DNA from: Candidatus Acidiflorens stordalenmirensis
GTDB taxonomy: Bacteria > Acidobacteriota > Terriglobia > Terriglobales > Acidobacteriaceae
Reading direction: 5' to 3'
NCBI GenBank assembly: GCA_003139995.1
Contig: PLIC01000132.1
Coordinates: 4,900-68,899, forward strand
Length of the DNA: 64,000 bases
Below the pieces are notes generated by a model. The model had not been told where the DNA came from and made no database searches. It saw nothing but the letters and a program-made list of their open reading frames with translations. Of this stretch, positions 31,512 through 49,443 are shown one piece after another (position 1 is the first letter of the stretch; each line of letters starts with the position of its first letter). Both the position numbers and the translations under genes were made by a program.

Positions 31512-31549
31512 TCGCCGCTCGCGGCTCGTGGCAAACCCAGCGCAGCTTC

Positions 31550-31684
31550 GCAGCCCGAGAAGCATATTGCTGATATCTGGTCACATCTCCGAGCATGGCG
31601 TAGAACTCTGTCAGCATGCCGATGACCTGCATTGGTGAGAACTCCGTGTCTCGTATTGCATCGAGGTACTGGGTGGCTCGATCC
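31550..31684 (-). pseudogene. Gene fragment, copy 1 of a ~134-bp duplication
   Basis: Encodes RATQYLDAIRDTEFSPMQVIGMLTEFYAMLGDVTRYQQYASRAAKL; near-identical at 34173-34306. Confidence 0.65.
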
Positions 31685-34128: not shown

Positions 34129-34479
34129 TCAAGGTCGTCGGATGGTTCGTGGGAGTTCTCTTCTTTGCACTTTGCAGCTCGAGAAGCATATTGCTGATAC
34201 CTGGTCACATCTCCGAGCATGGCGTAAAACTCTGTCAGCATGCCGATGACCCGCATTGGTGAGAACTCCGTGTCTCGTATTGCCTCGTGGTGCTGGGTGG
34301 CCCGTCGATAAGAGCGAAGGCGCTGTCAAGGGCAAAGATGTCCTGTGCAGTGCCTGAGCACCGCTTGCTTTGCCAGAGAGGTTGAGGACCAAGGCTCTGG
34401 AAATCTCATACTCCGTGAGCGCTGGCATTTTTCCGTCGAAGAGCAAACCAGTTAAGGCAAAACTAATCGCTCGTGACAT
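34129..34479 (-). pseudogene. Decayed small gene containing copy 2 of the 134-bp duplication
   Basis: MSRAISFALTGLLFDGKMPALTEYEISRALVLNLSGKASGAQALHRTS, then reading continues in another frame as RATQHHEAIRDTEFSPMRVIGMLTEFYAMLGDVTRYQQYASRAAK. Confidence 0.5.
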
Positions 34480-34741
34480 CGCTAGTGTTCCCGTGGAGGT
34501 GCCCTGTTACCGAGTCCAGGGTCTTCATCAGACGTTCGAGATGACCGGTGCTCAACGCCTCGCCGGGGATTCCTTTGTTGAAAACAAAGGTACTTCTCGG
34601 GTTCGTTCGGTAAAACTCTGGTGCCGACCAAAAGGAACGCCACCTCAAGGACTCCCTCAATGTGCCGGGAGAGCCGAATCGCCAAAGAGCCCTTTATAAT
34701 TAAGAGATTGAGCGATTCGGGCCAGCAACAAAGCCGGAAGC

Positions 34742-36478
34742 ATGCAATTCAGAGAAGCGCTAAAGACGATCCAGGAGAACTCATCGACGAACCGGCCAAC
34801 TTGCCGGGTACTACTGGTCACCGGGTTCACCCCGCTCCACTTGCAGACGTTCCTCCAGGCTCATTTGCAGCGCTTACTGCCGACAAAGCAGCTTGTGGTT
34901 TCTACTCGGCTCTACGGTGACCTGGCGGAAACCTTATTCGGCATCGAGTCTTCAACTGCAGACATGTGTGCCGTTGCTCTCGAATGGCCAGACCTCGATC
35001 CACGCCTCGGCTTCCGTCAACTGGGAGGGTGGGGACCCAGGGAGATCGCCGATATCCTAGTCGGCGCAGAGTCAAGACTTGTCACGATAAGGGAGAGTCT
35101 GGCTGCAGTGCCGAGTCACGTTCCGTTGGCCTTTTCACTGCCGACCCTAGCCCTGCCCCCGATCTTTCACACTCCATCGTGGCAATTGAGCGCGGCTGAG
35201 ATACGTCTTCGAAATGCCGTGGGTGAGCTTGCTCTCCGGATTAGCGAGAAACCTAACATACGATTCATCAATGCCCACAGCCAACAAGTGGCTGAGCCCC
35301 CGGCGCCTATCTTCGACTTCAAGGGTGAGCTCCTGGCTGGTTTGCCATATACAAGCTCTCACGCCGATCGACTCGGGCAGCTTCTAGCGCAAATTCTTGT
35401 ACCGGCACAACCCAAGAAGGGGTTGATTACCGATTTGGACGACACGCTCTGGGCAGGCATTGCCGGAGAAATAGGTCCACAGTCAGTTTCCTGGGACCTC
35501 GCCAGCAATACTCAGCTGCATGGTCTGTACCAGCAGCTGTTGCGGGCTTTGGCCGAACAGGGAGTGCTGATCGGGGTAGCTAGCAAGAACGATCCAGATA
35601 TCGTCGAAGCGGCCTTTCGGAGGAATGACATTTTGCTTCCGCGCGACTATGTCTTTCCTGTCGAGGTTCACTGGAATGCCAAATCGGAGTCGGTGGCAAA
35701 AATTCTGGACACTTGGAACATCGATGCCGACAGTGTTGTCTTCGTCGATGATAGTTCCAGCGAAATCGCCGAAGTGCAGGCTGCGCATCCCGGCATGGAA
35801 TGCATTCGCTTTGATGCCCAGGACTACGCCGGAGCACACAGCTTGCTCTACCGTCTCCGGGATCTCTTCGCAAAACCAACCATTACCGAAGAAGATGGCA
35901 TGCGGCGTGAGAGCCTCCGCACGGGAGGTGTTTTTCGCGCCGGGGCCCAGCAGCACGGCGCATCCTACGAAAATTTCTTACGTGAGGCGGAGTCAAAGAT
36001 CACCCCCGATTTCAACAATGCGGCGGCGAACCGGCGAAGCCTCGAACTCGTTAACAAGACCAACCAGTTCAATCTTAACGGGATTCGGTACACTGAGAGC
36101 GAATGGCACAGCAAGCTCAGTCTGCCCGGTTCGTTCTCGCTCATGGTTAGTTATCGCGACAAGTACGGACCACTCGGCGTCATTGCAACTCTCGTGGGCC
36201 AGGCGACCGATGCCGCTTTGACGGTAAACACTTGGGTGATGAGCTGCCGGGCCTTCGGGCGTCGCATCGAGCACCAGTGTCTTAAGCTTCTTTTGGAGCG
36301 CTTTCCAGCACCAGAGATCTTGTTGGAGTTTGCCCCGACGAAGCGCAACGGATATTTGCGGGAGTTTTCGGAATCGTTCCTTGGACAAAAGCCTGATGGA
36401 CCATTCAAGCTGTCGCGAACTGTCTTTCTGGAGAAGTGCCCCATGCTCTACCATCAGGTCGAAATGGATCATGACTGA
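34742..36478 (+). CDS. FkbH-like HAD-IIIC family protein
   Basis: LITDLDDTLWAGIAGEIG, LIGVASKNDPDIVEAAF, DADSVVFVDDSSSEIAEVQ, C-terminal acyltransferase-like region. Confidence 0.92.
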   Translation: MQFREALKTIQENSSTNRPTCRVLLVTGFTPLHLQTFLQAHLQRLLPTKQLVVSTRLYGDLAETLFGIESSTADMCAVALEWPDLDPRLGFRQLGGWGPREIADILVGAESRLVTIRESLAAVPSHVPLAFSLPTLALPPIFHTPSWQLSAAEIRLRNAVGELALRISEKPNIRFINAHSQQVAEPPAPIFDFKGELLAGLPYTSSHADRLGQLLAQILVPAQPKKGLITDLDDTLWAGIAGEIGPQSVSWDLASNTQLHGLYQQLLRALAEQGVLIGVASKNDPDIVEAAFRRNDILLPRDYVFPVEVHWNAKSESVAKILDTWNIDADSVVFVDDSSSEIAEVQAAHPGMECIRFDAQDYAGAHSLLYRLRDLFAKPTITEEDGMRRESLRTGGVFRAGAQQHGASYENFLREAESKITPDFNNAAANRRSLELVNKTNQFNLNGIRYTESEWHSKLSLPGSFSLMVSYRDKYGPLGVIATLVGQATDAALTVNTWVMSCRAFGRRIEHQCLKLLLERFPAPEILLEFAPTKRNGYLREFSESFLGQKPDGPFKLSRTVFLEKCPMLYHQVEMDHD

Positions 36479-36716
36479 TCTTCGTCATCGACTCGCCCAG
36501 TGTTTTTCTCTGGTGTTCCCCGGCCTCAATGAGCCGGAAGTGTATTCCGCGAGTTCTGCTTCCGTTGCGGCATGGGATTCGATGGCAGCAATAATTTTGG
36601 CCAATGTGATCGAGGAGGAATTCCAAGTAAAACTCGATTATAACGTCTTGCCGGACCTTGTCTCCTTTGACCTGATCGAAGATTACTTGAAGAGTAATGG
36701 CAATGGGACCTCGTAA
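36471..36716 (+). CDS. Acyl carrier protein
   Basis: VYSASSASVAAWDSMAAIILANVIEEEFQVKLDYN; Ser in WDSMA is the phosphopantetheine site; overlaps FkbH gene. Confidence 0.88.
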   Translation: MTDLRHRLAQCFSLVFPGLNEPEVYSASSASVAAWDSMAAIILANVIEEEFQVKLDYNVLPDLVSFDLIEDYLKSNGNGTS

Positions 36717-37899
36717 CGCTGTCGTCCGTCCAGCCGCGGATCTTTGCGTAGGCTTGCGCGCGGAGTTCGAACGCGAGATTAATGAAGCCGACGTCCTGGA
36801 CTTTGCCCGTAACTGCGGCGACATGAACCCGCTTCATATTGATGTCGAATATGCGCGTTCGACTAACCTGGGAGCCCGCGTCGTGCACGGTGCTTACCAG
36901 GTTGCGCTGGCCTCCGCCATGGCCGGAATGTATCTACCCGGCAGGATCAGCTTCCTGGTTTCGTTCCATGCGCAGTTCATCCGTCCTCTGTATTTCCCTT
37001 GCCGGGCGGCGGTGCGAGGTGAAATTACGGCTTGGGACCCAGAGAACATGCGCGGTAGCCTGAGCGTTGTCGTTGCGGAGTTGCCTAGTGAAATCGTGAC
37101 AAGCCAGATTCACGTGGGCTTCACCTGCCACGAAGTTGCAACGAAGGTGCCCGGTCCTCGCACCAGCGCGGTTCGACCGTTACCCCATACCGATGCCAAG
37201 CTTGTGTTGGTCACGGGAGCCTCCGGAGGAATCGGCTCGTATTTGGTCGGAGAACTGGCCCGCGATTACTCGATTCTGGCAGTCGTGAATCGCCGCTCGC
37301 TCCCGCCGGAACTGCTTGCCCATCCTCGTGTTCTTCAGCTCAAGGTCGATCTTTCCGAACCTGAGTGCATCCCAAACATCGAGGAGATGCTGGGAGCGAG
37401 ATCTCTTTACGGAATTGTTCACGCGGCATGGCCTGGCCTTCTGCAAGGCGGTCTGCTCTCAGTTTCGCGGCAAGCGCTCGAACAGCAACTCTCCTTCGCG
37501 ACTTTCCGCACCATCGAACTGGCTCGTCTTCTGGCCAGCAGAAGCGAGAGCGAAGGTGGTCGGCTTGTAGTCCTGGGCTCTACCGCTGGTACCGAAAAGC
37601 CGTCCTTGAGCACGGCGGCTTACTCCCTAGCCAAGGCATCGCTGGAGCATACCGTAAAACTGCTGGCGCCGGAACTCGCTCTTAAGAAGATAACCATCAA
37701 TGCCGTCTCTCCCTCTCTTTTACCGGTCGGTATGAATCTCCAGGCGAACGAGCGCCAGCGTCTAATGGCAAAGGCGGCAGTGCCGCTCGGCCGGCTTTGT
37801 GAAACTACGGATGTGATGGGGGCCATCCGTTATCTGTTCTCAAGCGACGCTTCGTTTCTCACAGGTCAGACCATCGTGTTGTCGGGCGGGCAAATCTAG
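36697..37899 (+). CDS. MaoC-like dehydratase fused to short-chain dehydrogenase/reductase
   Basis: MaoC: FARNCGDMNPLHIDVEYARSTNLGARVVHGAYQVALASAM; SDR: LVLVTGASGGIGSYLV, GSTAGTEKPSLSTAAYSLAKASLE. Confidence 0.9.
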   Translation: MAMGPRNAVVRPAADLCVGLRAEFEREINEADVLDFARNCGDMNPLHIDVEYARSTNLGARVVHGAYQVALASAMAGMYLPGRISFLVSFHAQFIRPLYFPCRAAVRGEITAWDPENMRGSLSVVVAELPSEIVTSQIHVGFTCHEVATKVPGPRTSAVRPLPHTDAKLVLVTGASGGIGSYLVGELARDYSILAVVNRRSLPPELLAHPRVLQLKVDLSEPECIPNIEEMLGARSLYGIVHAAWPGLLQGGLLSVSRQALEQQLSFATFRTIELARLLASRSESEGGRLVVLGSTAGTEKPSLSTAAYSLAKASLEHTVKLLAPELALKKITINAVSPSLLPVGMNLQANERQRLMAKAAVPLGRLCETTDVMGAIRYLFSSDASFLTGQTIVLSGGQI

Positions 37900-37954
37900 G
37901 ACGCTGCTCAGGGCACCCGGCCCGAAGGACAATTCGCCAACGATCGACCTTGCA

Positions 37955-38968
37955 ATGAGCGCAACACTCAGAGCCACCGAACAACACGATCTTCCAGCCC
38001 TGGCGACGTTCCTCGTCCGCGTGTACAAGTTTGAGCCTTCAGATTTTCACACCGACCAGCAGCTGCTGCAGTGGAAGTACCTCTATCCCAGGCCCGGTTG
38101 GCAAGGTGGCCGCAGCTACTTGATTGAAAGGGACGGGGACATTGTTGCTCACGCTGGTGTCTCTCCAATGTCTTTTCGTCTACCCACTGGGCAAGTCGTA
38201 AGCAGCCTCACAATCATGGACTGGGCCGCCGACTCCACGATGCCCGGGGTCGGTGTCATGCTGTTGCGCAAATTAATGGGGATGGCTCCCACATCTTTTA
38301 TCATCGGGGGGGCTCCAATCACACGCCAGCTCATACCCCGCATAGGGTTTCGTCAGGTCGGAGACGCTCTGACGCACGCCGCCTGGTTACGCCCACGGCG
38401 GGAATTTCGGACGCGCCCCCGCACGGGGAGATCCATTCTCCGCTTGGTGCACGGGTTGGCGCATCCCGTACCTATTCAGAGTCGGCTCAGTAGGCGCTGG
38501 GAATTTGTCCCGGTGAGCGAATTCGATAATTCGCTCCAGCCGATATTGAGCGACGCAAGGCGCACTTGGACGATCTGCCAGCGAACCATTGCGGACTTGA
38601 ACTATCTGCTGAAGTGTCCTCACTTGGAAGTGCGGGGGTTTTTGCTTCGGCACCAAAGCCGCCTCGGTGGTTATTTCATCATGGGAAAATCTGGCTGGGA
38701 AGCACGGCTACTTGACTTTGTTGTTGACTCAGAGGATATGAACGATTGGAAACGCGCATGTGCTGCCGTTACGAACGCAGCTTTGCTTGACCCCGAAGTT
38801 TGCCGAATTCGTGTCCTCTCTACTGTGCCGATTCTGAGCCAAGCATTGGCGTGGAACGGGTACTGGTGTCAGTACAAGGAACCCATCGCGCTTCACGATC
38901 CAGCCGATGCCATGGGCCGAGCGTTCCCTGTAAGTTTCCAACTCTTCGACGGCGACTCTGGCTATTAA
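37955..38968 (+). CDS. GNAT-family N-acyltransferase (large)
   Basis: MSATLRATEQHDLPALATFLVRVYK; 337 aa GNAT-like arrangement. Confidence 0.7.
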   Translation: MSATLRATEQHDLPALATFLVRVYKFEPSDFHTDQQLLQWKYLYPRPGWQGGRSYLIERDGDIVAHAGVSPMSFRLPTGQVVSSLTIMDWAADSTMPGVGVMLLRKLMGMAPTSFIIGGAPITRQLIPRIGFRQVGDALTHAAWLRPRREFRTRPRTGRSILRLVHGLAHPVPIQSRLSRRWEFVPVSEFDNSLQPILSDARRTWTICQRTIADLNYLLKCPHLEVRGFLLRHQSRLGGYFIMGKSGWEARLLDFVVDSEDMNDWKRACAAVTNAALLDPEVCRIRVLSTVPILSQALAWNGYWCQYKEPIALHDPADAMGRAFPVSFQLFDGDSGY

Positions 38969-39066
38969 GACGAACCAGCGCCTCACTCACGCTGCAAGCA
39001 TTTGCGGGTAGCACCAGCGCCTGAGTCGTGAGATACAATTCTGCGGAACCTTTCAAGAGGTAACCC

Positions 39067-40158
39067 TTGAGATTCGTCAGTCCTGCTCTGAAGCACATCG
39101 TCTTTCCCGCCTTGTCCTGGAGCGGGTACCTCCGCTACACGGCAGGTGCTGGTCCAGCGGTCGTGACATACCATGGCGTGTTCCCAGCCAGATACGAGGT
39201 CAGGAATCCGGCTTTGGACGGCAACCTAGTGCATACCGATTCGCTGCGGCGCCAGCTGCAGCTTCTGAAGAAGCGCTACCGCGTGATCTCCCCCGAAGAC
39301 TTCCTCCGTTGGTCCGAGGAAGAGCTGTCACTTCCGCCGCATTCGATATTGCTGACTTGTGACGACGCGCTGCGGAACACGCTGACGGAAATGGTTCCCA
39401 TACTGCAGGAGCTTGGCCTGTCTTGCCTCTTCTTCGCCACCGGCGCGTCCGCCGAGGAGACGCCGTCCATGCTCTGGTATGAGGAACTCTATCTGATGTT
39501 GTTGGACGCCAGCGAGTCCATCACTGTCAGCATTCCCGAAGCCGGCGTTAGCATTGGCCCAATTGCGCCGAACAGGAAACACTCGTGTTGGTGGAACTTG
39601 GTCGAACGGCTTTCGCAGTTCGATAGAGAACTCAGACGCAGATTCCTCGATCAAGTCCGCGACCAGCTCGGGCTTTCAGAAGATTGGGGAACGCGCCTCG
39701 TCGAGAATTCAACCGTGGCCTGCAGATTTCTTACGTTAGATCGAGAGGGGCTACGGCAACTGGTCGCTGCGGGAATGACGATCGGCGCCCATTCTCTCTC
39801 GCACCCGATTCTCGCGCGGGCACCCGAAGGATTGGCTTGGCGGGAGATCTCCGAAAGCCGGAGTGTTCTTGAGAAGGCTCTGGGGCTGACGGTGTGGGCC
39901 TTTGGGTATCCCTTCGGCAATGCCGCTACGGTCACAGGACGAGATTTGCGGCTGGCGGAGGAGGCAGGTTTCCGCTGCGCCTTTATGAACATCGGAGGCG
40001 GGTTTGGCGCGAAGATCAATCGCTTCGCCGTGCCGCGCGTCCACGTGACCGCCGACATGAGCTTGTTTGAGTTTGAGGCCCACATCTCGGGTTTCTACCG
40101 CTCCATGCGCAAGAGGCTGCTGGGCGGCGATGAACTGGAAGCGGTCGTGGGCGCTTAA
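39067..40158 (+). CDS. Polysaccharide deacetylase family protein
   Basis: VTYHGVFPARYEV, SILLTCDDALRNTLTEMVPILQELGLSCLFFATG, IGAHSLSHPILA. Confidence 0.88.
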   Translation: MRFVSPALKHIVFPALSWSGYLRYTAGAGPAVVTYHGVFPARYEVRNPALDGNLVHTDSLRRQLQLLKKRYRVISPEDFLRWSEEELSLPPHSILLTCDDALRNTLTEMVPILQELGLSCLFFATGASAEETPSMLWYEELYLMLLDASESITVSIPEAGVSIGPIAPNRKHSCWWNLVERLSQFDRELRRRFLDQVRDQLGLSEDWGTRLVENSTVACRFLTLDREGLRQLVAAGMTIGAHSLSHPILARAPEGLAWREISESRSVLEKALGLTVWAFGYPFGNAATVTGRDLRLAEEAGFRCAFMNIGGGFGAKINRFAVPRVHVTADMSLFEFEAHISGFYRSMRKRLLGGDELEAVVGA

Positions 40159-40425
40159 GAGCAAGCGACAAACTTTGGGCGGCAGCGACGGGTTAACCCG
40201 GGCGAGAGGCGCAACTTTTTTCTTATGAGGGGTAGCCTGCAAAGTTAGTTTGGGCCGCGGGGAATCCTCAGCTATCGGTCTTCCTCAGCTATACTAGCCA
40301 GCACAAGAACTTATCCGAAAAGCGAAGATTCTTCTGATTCAGGAAGGGTCCGATTAGGGACCGTCAAGACTGGCAGTGTGGCGCCCCGCGCGTGACTCGA
40401 AAGAAGAGATTTCGAAGGGACAAGA

Positions 40426-41430
40426 ATGGTGAATTGGCCGCAGGAATCGATACTGGTAACGGGTGGAACGGGGTCGTTTGGGAAGAAGTTTGTGGAGATC
40501 ATGCTGCGCGACTACCATCCTCAACGACTGGTGGTTTTCAGCCGCGACGAGTTGAAGCAGCATGAGATGAGAACGTCGGGCTTTGATCATCCCAGCCTGC
40601 GGTATTTCATTGGAGACGTTCGGGACGTGGACCGCTTGAAGCGCGCTCTGGCGGGCGTGACGGTGGTGGTGCACACAGCGGCACTCAAGCAGGTGCCGGC
40701 TTGCGAGTACAACCCGTTCGAAGCGATCCAGACGAATATCATGGGTGGGCGCAACGTGATTGATGCGGCCATTGATCAAGGCGTGCGCCGCATTCTGGCG
40801 CTCAGCACCGACAAGGCGGTGAATCCGATCAATCTGTACGGCGCCACCAAGCTCTGCGCGGAAAAAGTGTTTGTGCAGGCCAATGCCTATGCGGGCGCGA
40901 AAAATACGCGTTTTAGCTGCGCGCGCTACGGGAACGTGGTGGGGAGCCGCGGTAGCGTGATCCCGGTTTTTCTGGAACAGCGCCGACGCGGGAAGATCAC
41001 GATCACGGATCCGCGAATGACGCGATTCTGGCTGACGCTGGAGCAGGGCGTGAAGTTTGTGATCCGGTGCATCGAGCAGATGCACGGCGGCGAGATTTTT
41101 GTTCCGAAGATTCCGAGCATGCGGCTGGTGGACCTGGCGGAGACCGTCGCGCCCGGATGTGAGGTGGAGTACATCGGGATTCGTCCGGGAGAGAAGTTGC
41201 ATGAAGTGCTGGTCTCTGAGGACGAGTCGCGGCAAACGCTCGAAACTGAAGACATGTACGTGATACAGCCATCGCATCCGTGGTGGAAATCGGAAAACTG
41301 GGTGAATGCCAAGCCGCTTCCGGAAGGCTTTCGTTATTCAAGCGACACGAACGAACGCTGGCTGACGCGGCGTGAGTTGGAAGATTTGGTGACGCCGGAA
41401 ACTGCGGAGGCGGTGCCGACGTCCGCCTAG
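40426..41430 (+). CDS. pseB: UDP-N-acetylglucosamine 4,6-dehydratase (inverting)
   Basis: ILVTGGTGSFGKKFVEIML, FSRDELKQHEM, LSTDKAVNPINLYGATKLCAEKVF. Confidence 0.95.
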   Translation: MVNWPQESILVTGGTGSFGKKFVEIMLRDYHPQRLVVFSRDELKQHEMRTSGFDHPSLRYFIGDVRDVDRLKRALAGVTVVVHTAALKQVPACEYNPFEAIQTNIMGGRNVIDAAIDQGVRRILALSTDKAVNPINLYGATKLCAEKVFVQANAYAGAKNTRFSCARYGNVVGSRGSVIPVFLEQRRRGKITITDPRMTRFWLTLEQGVKFVIRCIEQMHGGEIFVPKIPSMRLVDLAETVAPGCEVEYIGIRPGEKLHEVLVSEDESRQTLETEDMYVIQPSHPWWKSENWVNAKPLPEGFRYSSDTNERWLTRRELEDLVTPETAEAVPTSA

Positions 41431-41431
41431 C

Positions 41432-42652
41432 ATGAGCGCCTTACCCACAAAGCTGGAAACGCTCGCCATCCATGGGGGAACGCCCGTGCGGGAAACGTTG
41501 TTGCCCTACGGGCGGCAGAGTCTCAACGAAGAAGATATTCAGGCGGTCGTAGAAGTTTTGCGGTCCGACTGGCTGACGACCGGACCGAAAGTCGGCGAGT
41601 TTGAGGAGCGATTCGCAGCGTGGGTGGGAGCGAAGTGCGGGGTCAGCTTCAGTTCGGGCACGGCTGCGCTGCACGCGGCGGCCTTTGCAGCGGGACTCGG
41701 GCCGGGGGATGAGGCGATCACCACGCCCATGACTTTCTGCGCGACCGCGAATTGTGTGCTGTACCAGGGAGCGAAGCCCGTGTTCGCCGACGTGAGTGCA
41801 GACACACTGAATCTCGATCCCGGCGAAGTTGCAAAGAAGCTCTCTTCACGGACAAAGGCCATTCTTGCGGTCGACTATGCCGGGCACCCTGCGGATCTTG
41901 ATGCGCTGCTTGCGGTCACGCGGCAGCGTGGAATTCCACTGATTGAAGATGCCTGTCACGCGCTGGGCGCGAACTACCGCGGAAAGCGCGTGGGCGGCAT
42001 TTCGGATATGACCGTGTTCAGCTTTCACCCCGTGAAGCACCTGACCACCGGGGAAGGCGGTATGGTTACGACCAACGATGCGCGGCTGGCCGAGACGCTG
42101 CGGCGCTTTCGCAATCACGGCATCAGCAGCGAAGCGCGCGAGCGGCAGCAATCCGGGCAGTGGTTTTACGAGATGGTGCTGCTGGGCTTCAATTACAGGT
42201 TGACGGATATCGCTTGCGCGCTGGGACTGTCGCAGTTGGAAAAGCTGGATGTGAACCTGGCGCGGCGGCGAGAAATTGCGGCGCGATACACGGCGGCGTT
42301 CCGGGATTTGCCGGCGGTCATTGTCCCCACGGTGCGCGATGGCGTGAATCCGGCGTGGCATTTATATCCGATCCGGCTGAAACTGGAAATGTTGTTGGCG
42401 GGGCGTGGGGAAATCTTTCGAGCCCTGCGCGCGGAGAATATCGGCGTGAATGTTCACTACATCCCGGTGCATCGACATCCGTACTACCGCGAGCGCTTCA
42501 AGTCCAAGGAAGGTTATCCGGTGGCGGAGGGCACGTATGAGCGGCTGATCAGCCTGCCGATGTTTCATGCGATGACGGCGCAGGATGTGGAAGACGTGAT
42601 CCACGCGCTGCGAAAAGTTATGCTTCATTACGAAGGGGAGCGCTCGCATTAG
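41432..42652 (+). CDS. pseC: UDP-4-amino-4,6-dideoxy-N-acetyl-beta-L-altrosamine transaminase
   Basis: DegT fold, DACHALGANYRGKRVGGISDMTVFSFHPVKHLTTGEGGMVTTND; adjacent to pseB. Confidence 0.95.
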   Translation: MSALPTKLETLAIHGGTPVRETLLPYGRQSLNEEDIQAVVEVLRSDWLTTGPKVGEFEERFAAWVGAKCGVSFSSGTAALHAAAFAAGLGPGDEAITTPMTFCATANCVLYQGAKPVFADVSADTLNLDPGEVAKKLSSRTKAILAVDYAGHPADLDALLAVTRQRGIPLIEDACHALGANYRGKRVGGISDMTVFSFHPVKHLTTGEGGMVTTNDARLAETLRRFRNHGISSEARERQQSGQWFYEMVLLGFNYRLTDIACALGLSQLEKLDVNLARRREIAARYTAAFRDLPAVIVPTVRDGVNPAWHLYPIRLKLEMLLAGRGEIFRALRAENIGVNVHYIPVHRHPYYRERFKSKEGYPVAEGTYERLISLPMFHAMTAQDVEDVIHALRKVMLHYEGERSH

Positions 42653-42826
42653 CTCGAGACCCTGCGAAAAAAATAACTTCATGCCCCTGATTTCCGCGCA
42701 CGAGCAAAGTTGCGGGCGAGAAGGGAACTGCGCTACCTTGGAAACGAAAACAAGGATACCGCATTGCTTATCCGCTCAAAGGGAGAGCGGCTGTATGCGC
42801 ATTGGCCAATCCAGGCGGGAAGAGGC

Positions 42827-43555
42827 ATGAGGGTCATTGCCATTATCCAAGCGCGCATGGGCAGCACGCGGCTGCCGGGCAAGGTTCTCGAGGAGGTGGG
42901 CAGCCAAACGGTCCTGGCGCGAGTAGTCGAACGCACTCGCCGGGCAAAAAGGCTCGACGAAATCATGGTAGCGACCAGTGAGCTTCCGGCGGACGACGGG
43001 ATCTCGGCGACCTGTGCGCAGCGAGGATGGGCTTGTTTCCGAGGCAGCGAGAAGGATGTGCTCGACCGCTATTATCAGGCGGCACTGGTTTGCGGGGCTG
43101 AGGCAGTGGTACGAGTTACCTCGGATTGTCCGCTGATTGACCCGGAGGTCGTGGACTTGATTGTAGGCACGTTTCTCGATCAGCGAGTTGACTATGCCAC
43201 CAATGATTTTCCTCCTACATACCCTCGCGGCTTGGACGCTGAAGCATTCACCATGGCGGCGTTGACGCGTGCCTGGGGCAAAGCCAAAGAAACCTATCAG
43301 CGGGAGCATGTCACGCCGTTCTTCTATGAGAATCCGGAATTGTTTTCTGTGGCCTCGGTGCGCGCCGAGTCTGACTATAGCGGCTATCGTTGGACGCTGG
43401 ACACGCCGGAAGATTTGCAGCTAATACGCGAGATTTACCGGCGGTTTGATAACCGGGACGATTTCAGCTGGCGTGAGGTTCTGTCGCTCATGCAGCGTGA
43501 ACCGGAACTGGCCCTGATCAACGCACACGTGCTCCAGAAGTCCTATCAGGTCTGA
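42827..43555 (+). CDS. pseF: Pseudaminic acid cytidylyltransferase-like protein
   Basis: VIAIIQARMGSTRLPGKVLEEVG; between pseC and pseG; start at MRVIAII. Confidence 0.85.
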   Translation: MRVIAIIQARMGSTRLPGKVLEEVGSQTVLARVVERTRRAKRLDEIMVATSELPADDGISATCAQRGWACFRGSEKDVLDRYYQAALVCGAEAVVRVTSDCPLIDPEVVDLIVGTFLDQRVDYATNDFPPTYPRGLDAEAFTMAALTRAWGKAKETYQREHVTPFFYENPELFSVASVRAESDYSGYRWTLDTPEDLQLIREIYRRFDNRDDFSWREVLSLMQREPELALINAHVLQKSYQV

Positions 43556-44616
43556 TGCCTCCAGGAACTCTCATCATACGCGCGGATGCCAACGTCTCCA
43601 TTGGTATTGGCCACGTCATGCGCTGCCTTGGGATTGCCCAAGCTTGGCAGGATATTGGCGGCAAGTGTCTGCTCGCAGCCTATGATCTGAATCCATCCAT
43701 GGAAGGACGAGTCCGTTCGGAAGGAATCGCCGTAATCAACCCTAAAAAGGGTGACGGCGGATCGGAGGATGCCAGCGAGCTCGTGGAATTGGCACGACAG
43801 GAAAATGCTGAGTGGGTGGTCGTGGACGGATACCATTTCAACACCGCCTATCAGCGTGCTGTCAAAGCGGCGGGGTTCAAGCTTCTGTTCGCGGACGATT
43901 ATGGCCATGCCAGAAGCTATGTAGCCGACATTGTGCTGAACCAGAACGCAGGCGCGAGTGAAACGCTGTACCAACAACGAGAGCCTTATACCCAGCTCCT
44001 GCTGGGCCTGCATTATTTCGGGTTGCGTCGCGAATTTGAAAAATGGGGACGATGGGAGCGGAACATTCCGCAGGTAGCACGCAAGGTGCTAGTCAGCATG
44101 GGTGGTGCCGATCTCGACAACGTGAGTCTGCAAGTTCTGGAGGCGCTGCAAGCCGTCGAGAACGAGAATCTTGAGGTCGTTTTAGTGATTGGCGGGAACA
44201 ATCCACACCGTCAGTCTCTCGAACACGCAGCTTCGCTTTGCAACCTTCCCATCCGAGGGGAGACCAACCCGGCGCGTATGCCGGAGTTGATGGTTTGGTC
44301 GGAGTTTGCAGTTTCCGCAGGCGGCGGCACATGTTATGAGCTGGCTTTTTTGCAGGTGCCCATGTTGTTGATTACCATTGCCCAGAACCATGAGCACACC
44401 TGTCAAGTCCTTGCTGCGGAGGGTGCAGCGATTCATGCTGGCTGGTTTCATTCGCTTGACCGGAATCGGCTTGCGATGTCTATTCAAAAGGCCATCTTGG
44501 ACCGAGCCCTGCGCAAATCACTAATTGAGAACGGGCGCCGGCTGGTGGATGGCAAAGGAGCACAGCGTGTGGTGAAGAGTATGACGTCAGTGGGATCAAA
44601 CGGAATGTCCATGTGA
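43555..44616 (+). CDS. pseG: UDP-2,4-diacetamido-2,4,6-trideoxy-beta-L-altropyranose hydrolase
   Basis: IIRADANVSIGIGHVMRCLGIAQAWQDIGG; SMGGADLDN; SAGGGTCYELAFLQVPMLLIT. Confidence 0.93.
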   Translation: MPPGTLIIRADANVSIGIGHVMRCLGIAQAWQDIGGKCLLAAYDLNPSMEGRVRSEGIAVINPKKGDGGSEDASELVELARQENAEWVVVDGYHFNTAYQRAVKAAGFKLLFADDYGHARSYVADIVLNQNAGASETLYQQREPYTQLLLGLHYFGLRREFEKWGRWERNIPQVARKVLVSMGGADLDNVSLQVLEALQAVENENLEVVLVIGGNNPHRQSLEHAASLCNLPIRGETNPARMPELMVWSEFAVSAGGGTCYELAFLQVPMLLITIAQNHEHTCQVLAAEGAAIHAGWFHSLDRNRLAMSIQKAILDRALRKSLIENGRRLVDGKGAQRVVKSMTSVGSNGMSM

Positions 44617-44623
44617 GCCAACC

Positions 44624-45724
44624 ATGAGCATGCTAGAAGAAATGAATCCTCCGGAGCACATCTGGGAAGTAGGAAGCGAGTTTCATTGGTGTGATTTACC
44701 ACAGCCACCGTTTCTTCCCTGGCCTGCGGAAGTTCGCTGGTATTTGTTGGCGCGACACGGCATCGCCGCGCTGATACAGTTGCACTCCGCGAAGAAACCA
44801 GCTCTATGGTTGCCCTCCTACTTCTGTCCGGAAGTGGCCGAAGCCTGCCGTTCGATTTGTGAACTGTTTGAATACCGTGACGATCCTCGTTGGCCAGAGC
44901 CAGATTGGAGTTCTTTGCACCCCGCGCACCATGATCTCGTCTTGGCGGTCAATTATTTCGGAGTGCGGAGTGGTATTTCGTGGCAGAATTGGCGGGTTAC
45001 CCATGAGTGCTTCTTAGTGGAAGATCACACCCAAGATCCATTCTCTCCATGGTGTTTGAATTCTGCCGCCGATTATGCCGTAGCCTCTTTACGCAAGACC
45101 ATGCCCATTCCAGATGGCGCTGTGATATGGTCGCCACGCGCGCTGGAACTGCCCCAGCAACCGGACAGCGAAGCTGGAGAATGGTCCGGTAGTGCTCTCA
45201 AGACTGCTGCCATGCTTTATAAGACCGAATATCTGCGCGGACAGGGAGGCGATGAGCTGAAGAGTCGTTTCCGCGATCTCCAGATGCGCGGCGAGCAGCG
45301 TATGCGGAGTAGCTCGATTTCAGCCGTGTCGCCGTACAGCCGGGCTTACATCGAAAACGGAATGCCGGAACATTGGCGAGTGCAGCGGCTGCGCAATGCC
45401 CGCTATCTCCTGAACCAGCTTCCTAAGCTGAAGTATGCAGACTTACTTTTTCAGGAATGGCCTGAGGGAGCGGTTCCATTCGTGCTGTTATTACTCTTTC
45501 ATTCGCAAAACGAACGTGATAACTGCCAGGCATGCCTGCAACGTCAAAGAATTTACTGTCCTGTCCATTGGGCTTGCCAGACGGAGAACATCGAGGCAAT
45601 TGATTTGTGCGCGCGCATCCTGAGCCTACCCATTGACCAACGTTATGCGGAGAACGAAATGGAGCGCATTGCTGCTGCTCTTAACGCATATGCCGAGGCA
45701 AACGTGGCGGGCGCAATACTATAA
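44624..45724 (+). CDS. PLP-dependent aminotransferase-fold (DegT-like) protein
   Basis: LVEDHTQDPFSPWCLNSAADYAVASLRKTMPIPDGAVIWSP resembles a PLP-lysine loop; 366 aa. Confidence 0.6.
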   Translation: MSMLEEMNPPEHIWEVGSEFHWCDLPQPPFLPWPAEVRWYLLARHGIAALIQLHSAKKPALWLPSYFCPEVAEACRSICELFEYRDDPRWPEPDWSSLHPAHHDLVLAVNYFGVRSGISWQNWRVTHECFLVEDHTQDPFSPWCLNSAADYAVASLRKTMPIPDGAVIWSPRALELPQQPDSEAGEWSGSALKTAAMLYKTEYLRGQGGDELKSRFRDLQMRGEQRMRSSSISAVSPYSRAYIENGMPEHWRVQRLRNARYLLNQLPKLKYADLLFQEWPEGAVPFVLLLLFHSQNERDNCQACLQRQRIYCPVHWACQTENIEAIDLCARILSLPIDQRYAENEMERIAAALNAYAEANVAGAIL

Positions 45725-45735
45725 GCTGACGCGAT

Positions 45736-46482
45736 ATGAAGATCGCAATCTCCCAACCCACATACCTCCCATGGCTTGGCTATTTCGACCTGGTCGACCA
45801 GGTGGACAAGTTTGTGCTGCTGGACACGGTGCAGTTTGAGAAGCAGTCGTGGCAGCAGCGAAACCGGATCAAGACCCCTACTGGGTTGGAGTGGCTGACC
45901 GTACCGGTGAAGATCAAGGGGCGCTCGACACAGATCATTGAAGAAGTTGAGATCGCCGCGCCGGAATTTTACAAAAGGCACCTCAATTTGGTACACGCTC
46001 ACTACCGGACAACACACTATTTCAAGGATTGTTTCCCGCAACTTTCGGCGATCTTGGAAGAATCCTGCCGGGACAGGCTGGCCGTACTGAACTTTCGTCT
46101 TATCGAGTGGCTAATGGCGTCTCTGGGCATTACCGTTCCCTTGATATTGTCTTCAACCCTGAAGGTCGAGGGCACACGCTCAGCTCTTAACCTGGCTATC
46201 TGTGAACGGCTCTGTGCCACGAAATACCATTCCGCCATTGGCTCCGCAGTTTACCTCTTGCCAGACGTAGATTTATTTGCACGTAAGGGCATTGAAGTCT
46301 GTTTTCAAAACTATGCGCACCCGGAATATCGGCAGCTCTTCCCGTCTTTCTGCCCGTACGCGTCAACTCTGGACCTGATCTTCAATGAGGGGCCGCGCTC
46401 GCTGGAGATTATCCGTAGTGGCCGGGGCAATCCGTTATCGCCCGCACAGGTTGCGCTGCAGCAGAACCCGGCCCAGAGATGA
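45736..46482 (+). CDS. WbqC family protein
   Basis: MKIAISQPTYLPWLGYFDLVDQVDKFVLLDTVQFEKQSWQQRNRIKTP. Confidence 0.92.
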   Translation: MKIAISQPTYLPWLGYFDLVDQVDKFVLLDTVQFEKQSWQQRNRIKTPTGLEWLTVPVKIKGRSTQIIEEVEIAAPEFYKRHLNLVHAHYRTTHYFKDCFPQLSAILEESCRDRLAVLNFRLIEWLMASLGITVPLILSSTLKVEGTRSALNLAICERLCATKYHSAIGSAVYLLPDVDLFARKGIEVCFQNYAHPEYRQLFPSFCPYASTLDLIFNEGPRSLEIIRSGRGNPLSPAQVALQQNPAQR

Positions 46483-46664
46483 GCGACGTAGGGTATTGCT
46501 AAATTTCATATTTTTCCCACGCGACCAATGGTCCGGCTCAAGCAGAAGCCGAACTCGCACCTTATCGCGTACCTGCTATTGGCGCTCAGCCGCTGGGATG
46601 AAGATGTACAATATTGATTTTCCGGTCGAGGATTGAGTCGGTGGCTTGGATGGCAAAATTACCT

Positions 46665-47425
46665 ATGTCGACAAAACCCGAACCGAAGGTGGTTGCGCAG
46701 TCTACGCCAAAAGAGCTGGCGCTCCGTGAACGCCTTCATACTTTCTTCGACGAATGTCCCATCCCGAAAAATGAATTGTTCACGAACCTGGGGCTTTTCC
46801 TCAATTGACAGACCCTATCCCGCATTTTGTTCATGCACGAGCTGTACCAAAGAATTGTGAACGTCCACGGAATCGTCGTGGAATTTGGAACTCGTTGGGG
46901 CCAGAACCTGGCACTATTCTCTTCATTTCGCGGTATATATGAACCATTCAACTACACGCGAAAAATAGTTGGATTCGATACATTTGAGGGTTTGGGTCGG
47001 TTTCCGCGCAAGACAAGCGGTCAGAGGGTGTAGTTGTGGGAGGATACGGCGTTTCCGAGAACTACGAAGCGTATCTTGATGGCATCCTGAGCTATCACGA
47101 ACAAGAAAGTCCGCTCGCCCACATTCGCAAATACCAGCTCGTAAAAGGCGATGCGGCCGTAACCGCGCCCAAGTATCTTAACGACAACCCGGAAACCATC
47201 ATCGCCCTTGCCTATTTCGATTTTGATCTTTATGAGCCCACGAAGAAGTGTTTAGAGCTCATTAAGGACTACGTAACTCGCGGCTCCGTGTTGGCATTTG
47301 ACGAATTGAATCATCCGGCATTCCCAGGAGAGACAATAGCGCTTCGAGAAGTCCTCGGTTTACAAAAGTACAGGATCGTGCGTTCTCCCTTGGCGCCTAC
47401 GCCTTCTTATATTGTGATCGAGTAG
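46665..47425 (+). pseudogene. TylF/MycF-like methyltransferase, disrupted
   Basis: In-frame TGA at 46806-46808, then a frame change near 46990; frames join as ..LFLN*QTLSRILFMHELYQRIVNVHGIVVEFGTRWGQNLALF..GFDTFEGfGSVSAQDKRSEGVVVGGYGVSENYEAYLDGIL.. Confidence 0.85.
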
Positions 47426-47595: not shown

Positions 47596-48297
47596 CTACT
47601 TTTCGACCGTGATCAGCCAGTTGGAATTTGTGCCGCTACGGTTTCCGAAGGTTGTCTCAGTTTTCTCGAAGCTTACTTGGGCAAACTTGGCGAAGTACAC
47701 GGGCACCTCATCCGCTGCAAGGAAGTGCTGAGTGCTGTGAAGTTCGTTGGTCTCGGTGATGCTCAGTTGAAACGTATTGTGTTCGAGTCGTACTCCCTTG
47801 CCAAAGCGGTAGTCGTCGGTGGTCCTCAAGACTACAAAAGCTTTTCCTCCGGGGATAAGGATTCTGTGTACTTCCGCAAGGGCTTGTTTCATTTCATTTG
47901 CAGTGCCGTAGTAGAACACTCCGTAACTTAAGACGATGGCAAAACTGCAATCCATATAGGGAAGAGCAAGCATCGAAGCTTGCGACAGGCTCGCCTGCAA
48001 ACCCGCTTTCAGCAGCCGTTCGCGAGCCCGTTGCAGACCGACGAAGGAAATATCCATGCCAAACGCCTCGAACTCCAGCTCGGCAGCAAGTTTCGTATGG
48101 CGGCCGGCTCCCAATCCAATATCGAGGAACTGCACCGGGTGGTGTTTCTCCAGCAGTTCACGATTGGTCATCAGAAAACGGACGACATGATCGTTTGGAT
48201 AAATGGGACGGAAACGGGGTTTTTCGTGGAGCTGGTCCCAGTGTGAGGAGGAATCGAACATGTCAGGAGCATAACCGATTAAATACTTAAGATGCAC
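47596..48297 (-). CDS. SAM-dependent class I methyltransferase
   Basis: VQFLDIGLGAGRHTKLAAELEFEAFGMDIS; LPYMDCSFAIVLSYGVFYYGT. Confidence 0.88.
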   Translation of the reverse strand: MHLKYLIGYAPDMFDSSSHWDQLHEKPRFRPIYPNDHVVRFLMTNRELLEKHHPVQFLDIGLGAGRHTKLAAELEFEAFGMDISFVGLQRARERLLKAGLQASLSQASMLALPYMDCSFAIVLSYGVFYYGTANEMKQALAEVHRILIPGGKAFVVLRTTDDYRFGKGVRLEHNTFQLSITETNELHSTQHFLAADEVPVYFAKFAQVSFEKTETTFGNRSGTNSNWLITVEK

Positions 48298-49443
48298 GCG
48301 GTGTGTTGCAAGTGCTCCTGGTTGCCGTTATCATCCAGGCTGAAGTTGAGAATCCCAACCAGGGAGTCAATTCTGTTCGAAGCAAAGTGTCCGCGGTCCC
48401 TCAAGCTCGCACACCGGGAGATCGGAAGCAATTGTCCAATTTACATTGTGGCCGAGCTGTCGGCGAATCATCGCCAGGACTTTGATCAGGCGGTCCGGAT
48501 TCTTCGAGCCGCCAAGGACGCTGGCGCGGATGCGCTTAAGCTCCAGACCTACACGGCCGACACGATCACGCTGCGCAGCGACAGAGAATGTTTTCGGATT
48601 GCGGGCGGCACGCTGTGGGATGGCCGCACTCTTCACGACCTCTACCAGGAGGCATTTACGCCCTGGGAGTGGCAGCCGAAACTGAAAGAGATCGCGGACG
48701 AACTGGGGCTGCAGTTGTTTTCGAGCGCGTTTGACGATAGCGCCGTCGACTTTCTCGAACAGATGAATGTTCCCGCGCACAAGGTGGCGTCGTTTGAACT
48801 GGTGGACATCGGCTTGATCCAGAAGATGGCCCGCACCGGGAAGCCGATGATTATGTCGACCGGCATGGCCAGCGAAGACGAAATCTCGGAAGCGGTCGAG
48901 GCGGCGCGCGGGGCAGGTGCGACTCAGATTGCGCTGTTGAAGTGCACGAGCGCCTACCCGGCGCCGCCGGAGGAAGCGAACCTGCTCACGATCCCAGAAC
49001 TGGCGCGCCGTTTTGATTGTCCGGTGGGGCTTTCCGATCACACGATGGGAATCGCGGTGCCAGTCGTTGCCGTGACGCTCGGAGCGTGCATCATTGAGAA
49101 GCATCTTTGCCTGCGACGGGCGGATGGGGGGCCGGACGGTGCGTTCTCACTCGAACCCCAGGAATTCAAGGCGATGGTAGAGGCGGTGCGCACAGCCGAA
49201 AAAGCTCTTGGCGCGGTCCAGTTTGCCTCCGGACCGCGGGAGGCCAACAGCCTCAAGTTTCGGCGCTCGCTGTTTGTGGTCGAAGATATAAAGAAGGGCG
49301 AGTCATTTACGAAACAGAATGTGCGTTCGATTCGTCCGGCGGATGGATTGCACCCGCGGCACTTCAAGGAAGTTCTGGGAAAGCGAGCGGCCTGCGACGT
49401 GGAGCGGGGAACTCCGCTGAGTTGGGCGCTGGTGGCGGGCTAA
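48292..49443 (+). CDS. pseI: Pseudaminic acid synthase (start uncertain)
   Basis: IYIVAELSANHRQDFDQAVRILRAAKDAGADALKLQTYTADTITL; GLSDHTMG; C-terminal SAF-like domain; N-terminal ~45 aa not convincing. Confidence 0.92.
   Translation: MHAVCCKCSWLPLSSRLKLRIPTRESILFEAKCPRSLKLAHREIGSNCPIYIVAELSANHRQDFDQAVRILRAAKDAGADALKLQTYTADTITLRSDRECFRIAGGTLWDGRTLHDLYQEAFTPWEWQPKLKEIADELGLQLFSSAFDDSAVDFLEQMNVPAHKVASFELVDIGLIQKMARTGKPMIMSTGMASEDEISEAVEAARGAGATQIALLKCTSAYPAPPEEANLLTIPELARRFDCPVGLSDHTMGIAVPVVAVTLGACIIEKHLCLRRADGGPDGAFSLEPQEFKAMVEAVRTAEKALGAVQFASGPREANSLKFRRSLFVVEDIKKGESFTKQNVRSIRPADGLHPRHFKEVLGKRAACDVERGTPLSWALVAG

Follow-up and report, generated by a model that had tools for sequence, protein, structure and literature searches.

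Does a set of acyl-handling genes directly upstream of a pseudaminic acid (Pse) pathway belong to that pathway? The question is raised by a stretch of 64,000 nucleotides (nt) from Candidatus Acidiflorens stordalenmirensis, a member of the Acidobacteriota (contig PLIC01000132.1, positions 4,900 to 68,899; hereafter the window). In it, genes for an FkbH-type protein, an acyl carrier protein (ACP), a MaoC-SDR fusion and a large GNAT are followed by a CE4 polysaccharide deacetylase gene and then by pse genes. A first-pass annotation, made from this DNA alone, proposed that the GNAT acylates the Pse sugar in place of PseH. Comparison with related genomes makes us lean, by a little, towards a different answer: the cassette FkbH-ACP-(MaoC/SDR)-tandem GNAT-CE4, carried by soil acidobacteria, would swap one N-acyl group for another on an amino sugar, and the GNAT would not be the local PseH.

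All coordinates below are window positions, and the genes lie on the forward strand unless stated otherwise. The FkbH-type HAD-IIIC protein (34742..36478; 578 amino acids, aa) matches TIGR01686 with 209 bits, above the curated cut-off of 146.65 bits, and its motifs DLDDTLW and SCRAFGRR are intact. The standalone ACP (36471..36716; 81 aa) has a weak Pfam match (14.6 bits) and a phosphopantetheine motif, WDSM. The MaoC hydratase/dehydratase-SDR fusion (36697..37899; 400 aa; PF01575, PF13561) retains the motifs GDMNPLH and TGASGGIG/YSLAK when aligned with its counterparts at loci L012, L153 and L046. As had been noticed in the first pass, these three genes overlap, FkbH and ACP by 8 nt and ACP and MaoC-SDR by 20 nt. 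The tandem (double) GNAT (37955..38968; 337 aa) is a likely N-acyltransferase with a predicted fold like that of N-myristoyltransferases and Eis. All four gene calls and their positions were confirmed by profile matches, motifs or the structure model. The CE4 gene (39067..40158; 363 aa; PF01522, 61 bits), with the motifs TCDDA and HSLSH intact, starts 98 nt past the GNAT gene, and pseB follows after another 267 nt.

The extent of the cassette is given by its closest public relative, locus L012 in a metagenome-assembled genome of the Terriglobia (G396, called a congener from 89-90% protein identity over the cassette). One block of DNA is common to L012 and the window (34682..40181, forward strand, 87% identity by blastn). 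It opens 60 nt ahead of the start of FkbH and closes 23 nt beyond the stop of CE4, and its shared gene content is exactly FkbH-ACP-MaoC/SDR-GNAT-CE4. At L012 the block is flanked by RND efflux/AraC genes and a Ser/Thr kinase gene, a site unrelated to that in the window. Because the same block is conserved at this identity at another site in another genome, the gene arrangement is not due to chance. G396 has its own pse cluster elsewhere (L104), orthologous to that of the window (PseB 80%, PseC 75% and PseI 72% identity), in which PseG has a PseH-like GNAT domain as its fusion partner; this cluster has no adjoining FkbH cassette. The self-contained cassette is a separate unit, and the pse genes a neighbouring pathway. 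Just upstream of the cassette, a 135-nt direct repeat (31546-31680 and 34170-34304, 93% identical) surrounds a radical-SAM-like gene.

GNAT homologues were found in 3 of 297 genomes of the phylum and in 8 of 101 relatives, this genome being counted in both. In all 11 informative loci (the window, L012, L007, L008, L129-L134 and the diverged L153) the CE4 gene is the immediate neighbour of the GNAT gene. Since there are only about 7-12 CE4 matches per genome examined, chance adjacency throughout is not credible, and the constant position of the CE4 gene argues that the deacetylase belongs to the module. The first pass had set it apart, a division that did not hold: CE4 is the most constant partner of the GNAT. 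FkbH-ACP is joined to the GNAT-CE4 pair in the window and at L012, L008, L134, L153 and L007, and to the GNAT at L056. The combination FkbH-ACP-GNAT-CE4 thus recurs in genomes G289 (L008), G478 (L134) and G075 (L007), the last with an FkbH from outside the clade described below. MaoC-SDR is an optional member, present in the window, L012 and L153 only; a contig scan with it as query gave one true relative, L012. The congener G403 carries L153 as a second, diverged FkbH-ACP-MaoC/SDR-GNAT-CE4 set within a polysaccharide cluster, and the GNAT of this set aligns with the GNAT family over its full length and colinearly (hhalign, 96.4%, E=1e-9).

The GNAT query had no match among plasmids, and the MaoC-SDR query found there mostly partial SDR matches, some of which lie at genes bearing the annotation hsnC (host-specificity nodulation protein). 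The one flavobacterial genome searched was negative. A literature search for FkbH, GNAT and polysaccharide deacetylase together returned no relevant paper. At a further locus (L074, G249:C5) MBOAT, FkbH, ACP, MaoC and SDR genes are separate neighbours, a possible O-acylation counterpart.

The idea that FkbH and ACP work as a unit was upheld: at 29 of the 38 FkbH loci examined in the phylum an ACP gene lies within 130 bp (as judged with an ACP profile that had itself been iterated on these loci). Among 40 FkbH proteins placed in a tree, that of the window falls into a clade of six with support 100/100 (window, L012, L056, L008, L134 and L153). Every member of this clade adjoins an ACP and a tandem GNAT, in agreement with the proposed tie between the GNAT and FkbH-ACP. 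At L007 the FkbH that accompanies GNAT and CE4 is not a member of this clade, and its placement is unsure owing to long branches. This position suggests that the FkbH, GNAT and CE4 combination may have been assembled more than once. Another FkbH gene, in G028, lies in a Pse-like cluster (L046, G028:C47) composed of AKR, MaoC-SDR, FkbH, ACP, PseH-like, class III aminotransferase and PseG-formyltransferase fusion genes. It was considered as a sign of a pse link and rejected, as a PseH-like gene is part of this cluster and the FkbH encoded there branches elsewhere in the tree.

The GNAT itself is poorly described by sequence profiles. Its only Pfam match at E<=0.05 is a sub-threshold one to PF13527 (23.8 bits against a cut-off of 25), so it was not placed in the NodA family. 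In a whole-genome search it did not match the PseH model TIGR03585 at E<=0.001, and a sequence search of the PDB returned nothing significant. An AlphaFold2 model built from 16 homologues has a predicted local distance difference test score (pLDDT) of 87.6 and contains two GNAT folds in tandem; an earlier one, built from 4 sequences, was of poor quality (pLDDT 60.5) and was not searched. Foldseek matched the model best to N-myristoyltransferases and enzymes of the Eis type (E down to 3.8e-15, template modelling (TM) scores of 0.56-0.65), among them the N-myristoyltransferase 1iyl (E=3.8e-15, TM 0.64). These enzymes share the tandem fold and acylate amines, but they are only 8-14% identical to the GNAT and have other acceptors. 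The modelled fold supports N-acyl transfer. PseH is also a member of the GNAT superfamily, and N-acylation of an amino sugar is common to it and to the proposal made here, but PseH consists of a single small GNAT domain.

The following order of events is proposed for the cassette. FkbH, judging from its family and intact motifs, would draw on 1,3-bisphosphoglycerate for a three-carbon glyceryl unit and load this onto the ACP. Where present, MaoC-SDR might alter the ACP-bound acyl group by dehydration and reduction, for example from glyceryl through pyruvyl to lactyl; this lactyl route is our own proposal and the least certain step. CE4 would strip the N-acetyl group off an amino sugar and free the amine, as its family and constant linkage suggest. 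The tandem GNAT, by its fold and linkage, would then move the ACP-bound acyl group onto the freed amine. The model amounts to NodB plus NodA with an ACP, a small hydroxyacyl group replacing the fatty acid. In rhizobia, NodB deacetylates the sugar and NodA fills the exposed amine with an acyl group from an ACP (PMC5080398), and the cassette likewise has a CE4 gene with catalytic motifs adjoining an acyltransferase and an ACP. Unlike the rhizobial system, the cassette has no ketoacyl synthase, its GNAT matches PF13527 alone, and the presumed load is a three-carbon unit from FkbH. The pairing of an FkbH-like protein with a standalone ACP is known from the glyceryl-ACP units of polyketide clusters (Mad7/Mad8, Mad14/Mad12; PMC7489565), but the cassette is without a polyketide synthase and its acyl group would go to an amine.

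Past the cassette, the genes pseB, pseC, pseF-like and pseG (40426..44616) are not part of it and are orthologous to those of L104. The first-pass calls of pseB, pseC, pseG and pseI stand above curated cut-offs (TIGR03589, 498 bits; TIGR03588, 486 bits; TIGR03590, 204 bits; and, for pseI at 48292..49443, TIGR03586, 496 bits). The pseF call is sustained by homology to cytidine triphosphate transferases and by position, while the gene matches its own model, TIGR03584, weakly (21.6 bits). It was also right that the pse genes include no PseH-type gene: TIGR03585 has no match on the contig of the window (C194), and a tblastn search of the window with the PseH domain of a congener found nothing. The best match to the PseH model in the genome, in the profile search that had been suggested, is a 182-aa protein on contig C150 in another amino-sugar cluster (60.6 bits, below the cut-off of 93.1).

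It is tempting to fill this gap with the cassette, FkbH/ACP feeding the GNAT and the GNAT N-acylating the 4-amino sugar from which Pse is made in PseH's place. The cassette adjoins pseB, the genome offers only the sub-threshold PseH candidate, and in G403 the GNAT-CE4 pair lies upstream of pseB as well. Glyceric-acid Pse derivatives are known from Campylobacter jejuni (PMC3068675), and of two strains without them, one carries its fkbH gene, cj1302, as a pseudogene (PMC7099621). The four congeners that can be compared, however, fill all four combinations of a GNAT-CE4 pair beside pse and a PseH: pair without PseH in the window, both in G403 (where PseH is present as a PseG fusion), PseH without the pair in G396, and neither in G417, whose pse cluster has no PseH and no linked cassette. 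In addition, no PseI match was found in the cassette carriers G289 and G478, nor in G409, which has the GNAT-CE4 pair. Because of these four combinations and the PseI-less carriers, the GNAT is neither tied to Pse nor tracks the loss of PseH. A separate FkbH-ACP-TylF-DUF2172-AAC3 set, its FkbH from another clade, is moreover present in the pse locus of G403. A PseH replacement was therefore rejected as very improbable, and Pse as the target was not sustained. A milder version, in which GNAT-CE4 acts on a Pse-pathway sugar or polysaccharide besides acylation of the PseH type, for instance by replacing the C2 N-acetyl group (later N5 of Pse), is a little less improbable. It is favoured by the position of the pair directly upstream of pseB in two congeners (the window and G403), but the pair is away from pse in the other judgeable congeners and in all other lineages, and three of these pse-unlinked genomes are the PseI-less G289, G409 and G478.

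A different doubt concerns the donor: the GNAT may be an ordinary N-acetyltransferase using acetyl coenzyme A (CoA) and paired with CE4, with FkbH-ACP-MaoC/SDR separate and merely co-transcribed. Several observations of this kind weigh against the exchange model. In four congeners (the main copy of G403, G409, G415 and G417) the GNAT-CE4 pair has no adjoining FkbH (loci L129, L130, L131 and L132; L133 is cut by a contig end), and in G409, 88% complete, no FkbH was found in the genome. The GNAT of these congeners would therefore need another donor, and its acyl group may be plain acetyl. The fold does not tell a CoA from an ACP donor. At L056 the only CE4-like gene is divergent from FkbH and behind it, and the homology of the L153 GNAT could be at superfamily level only. 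Conservation and linkage were observed; every chemical step of the exchange model, substrate and product included, is inferred. On the other side, the GNAT is accompanied by FkbH-ACP in no fewer than five separate lineages (window/L012, L008, L134, L056, and L007 with another FkbH) and in the diverged L153, and removing an acetyl group just to restore it would be senseless. The acetyl-CoA explanation is accordingly unlikely, if less so than the two that invoke Pse, and FkbH-fed N-acyl transfer still appears to be the best guess.

The missing PseH is better explained by WbqC, which occupies its place between pseG and pseI. The spot where congeners carry the PseH domain is occupied in the window by orf44624 (366 aa, no family) and wbqC (PF08889), together at 44624..46482, followed by a broken TylF-like methyltransferase gene, a reverse-strand methyltransferase gene and pseI. 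A wbqC gene without a PseH domain lies between pseG and pseI in the window and G417, and PseH without wbqC is found in G396 and G403; in G414, too, wbqC precedes pseI, but the sequence is truncated upstream. Guanine-cytosine content is 52.6% across the segment that runs from orf44624 to the methyltransferase, against 57-59% around it, as one would expect if this segment had been swapped in. The N-acylation that is missing may be supplied by WbqC. According to a suggestion noted in Pfam, one WbqC-like protein might act as a glycine transferase. The TylF-like gene (46540-47425) is split over two frames near 47000, by pseudogenization or an assembly frameshift; its G403 homologue is an open frame. 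The protein of orf44624 is encoded twice in this genome (44624-45724; L009:4312-5376) and has one distant match elsewhere in the 297 phylum genomes; the C150 copy overlaps a PseH-like gene.

For glyceric-acid Pse, if it is made in this genus, G403 offers the better candidate. In C. jejuni the fkbH-domain gene cj1302 lies together with cj1295 in the flagellar glycosylation locus (PMC3068675, PMC7099621), and the formation of di-O-methylglyceric-acid Pse requires Cj1295 (DUF2172) (PMC3068675, PMC6321876). In G403 the pse genes are followed downstream by AAC3-like, DUF2172, TylF-like, FkbH and ACP genes, with an FkbH from a clade other than that of the window. We know of no tandem GNAT or CE4 in the C. 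jejuni cj1295/cj1302 set. In the window neither DUF2172 nor AAC3 had a match, so it lacks that set. The G403 region (L131 and L152, G403:C89:120500-150100; AAC3-like, DUF2172/DUF4910 (Cj1295-like), TylF-like, FkbH, ACP) holds much of the C. jejuni gene set outside Campylobacter.

Two FkbH systems in one genus are thereby set apart, the cassette and the C. jejuni-like glyceric-acid set within the pse locus of G403. The case also counsels caution about gene adjacency, as a block of 5.5 kb that relatives carry at different sites had looked like part of the neighbouring pathway. Tentatively, and with less confidence than the cassette's role in acyl exchange, the cassette may represent a new bacterial route by which the N-acetyl group of an amino sugar is exchanged for an FkbH-derived hydroxyacyl group (glyceryl, or lactyl where MaoC/SDR has acted) by means of a dedicated ACP, a CE4 and an N-myristoyltransferase-like tandem GNAT, spread as a movable unit among the surface-glycan pathways of acidobacteria. 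If this is true, a five-gene set testable in vitro has been named, and bacteria would have a dedicated route that places a small hydroxyacyl group from a glycolytic intermediate onto a sugar amine, outside polyketide synthesis.

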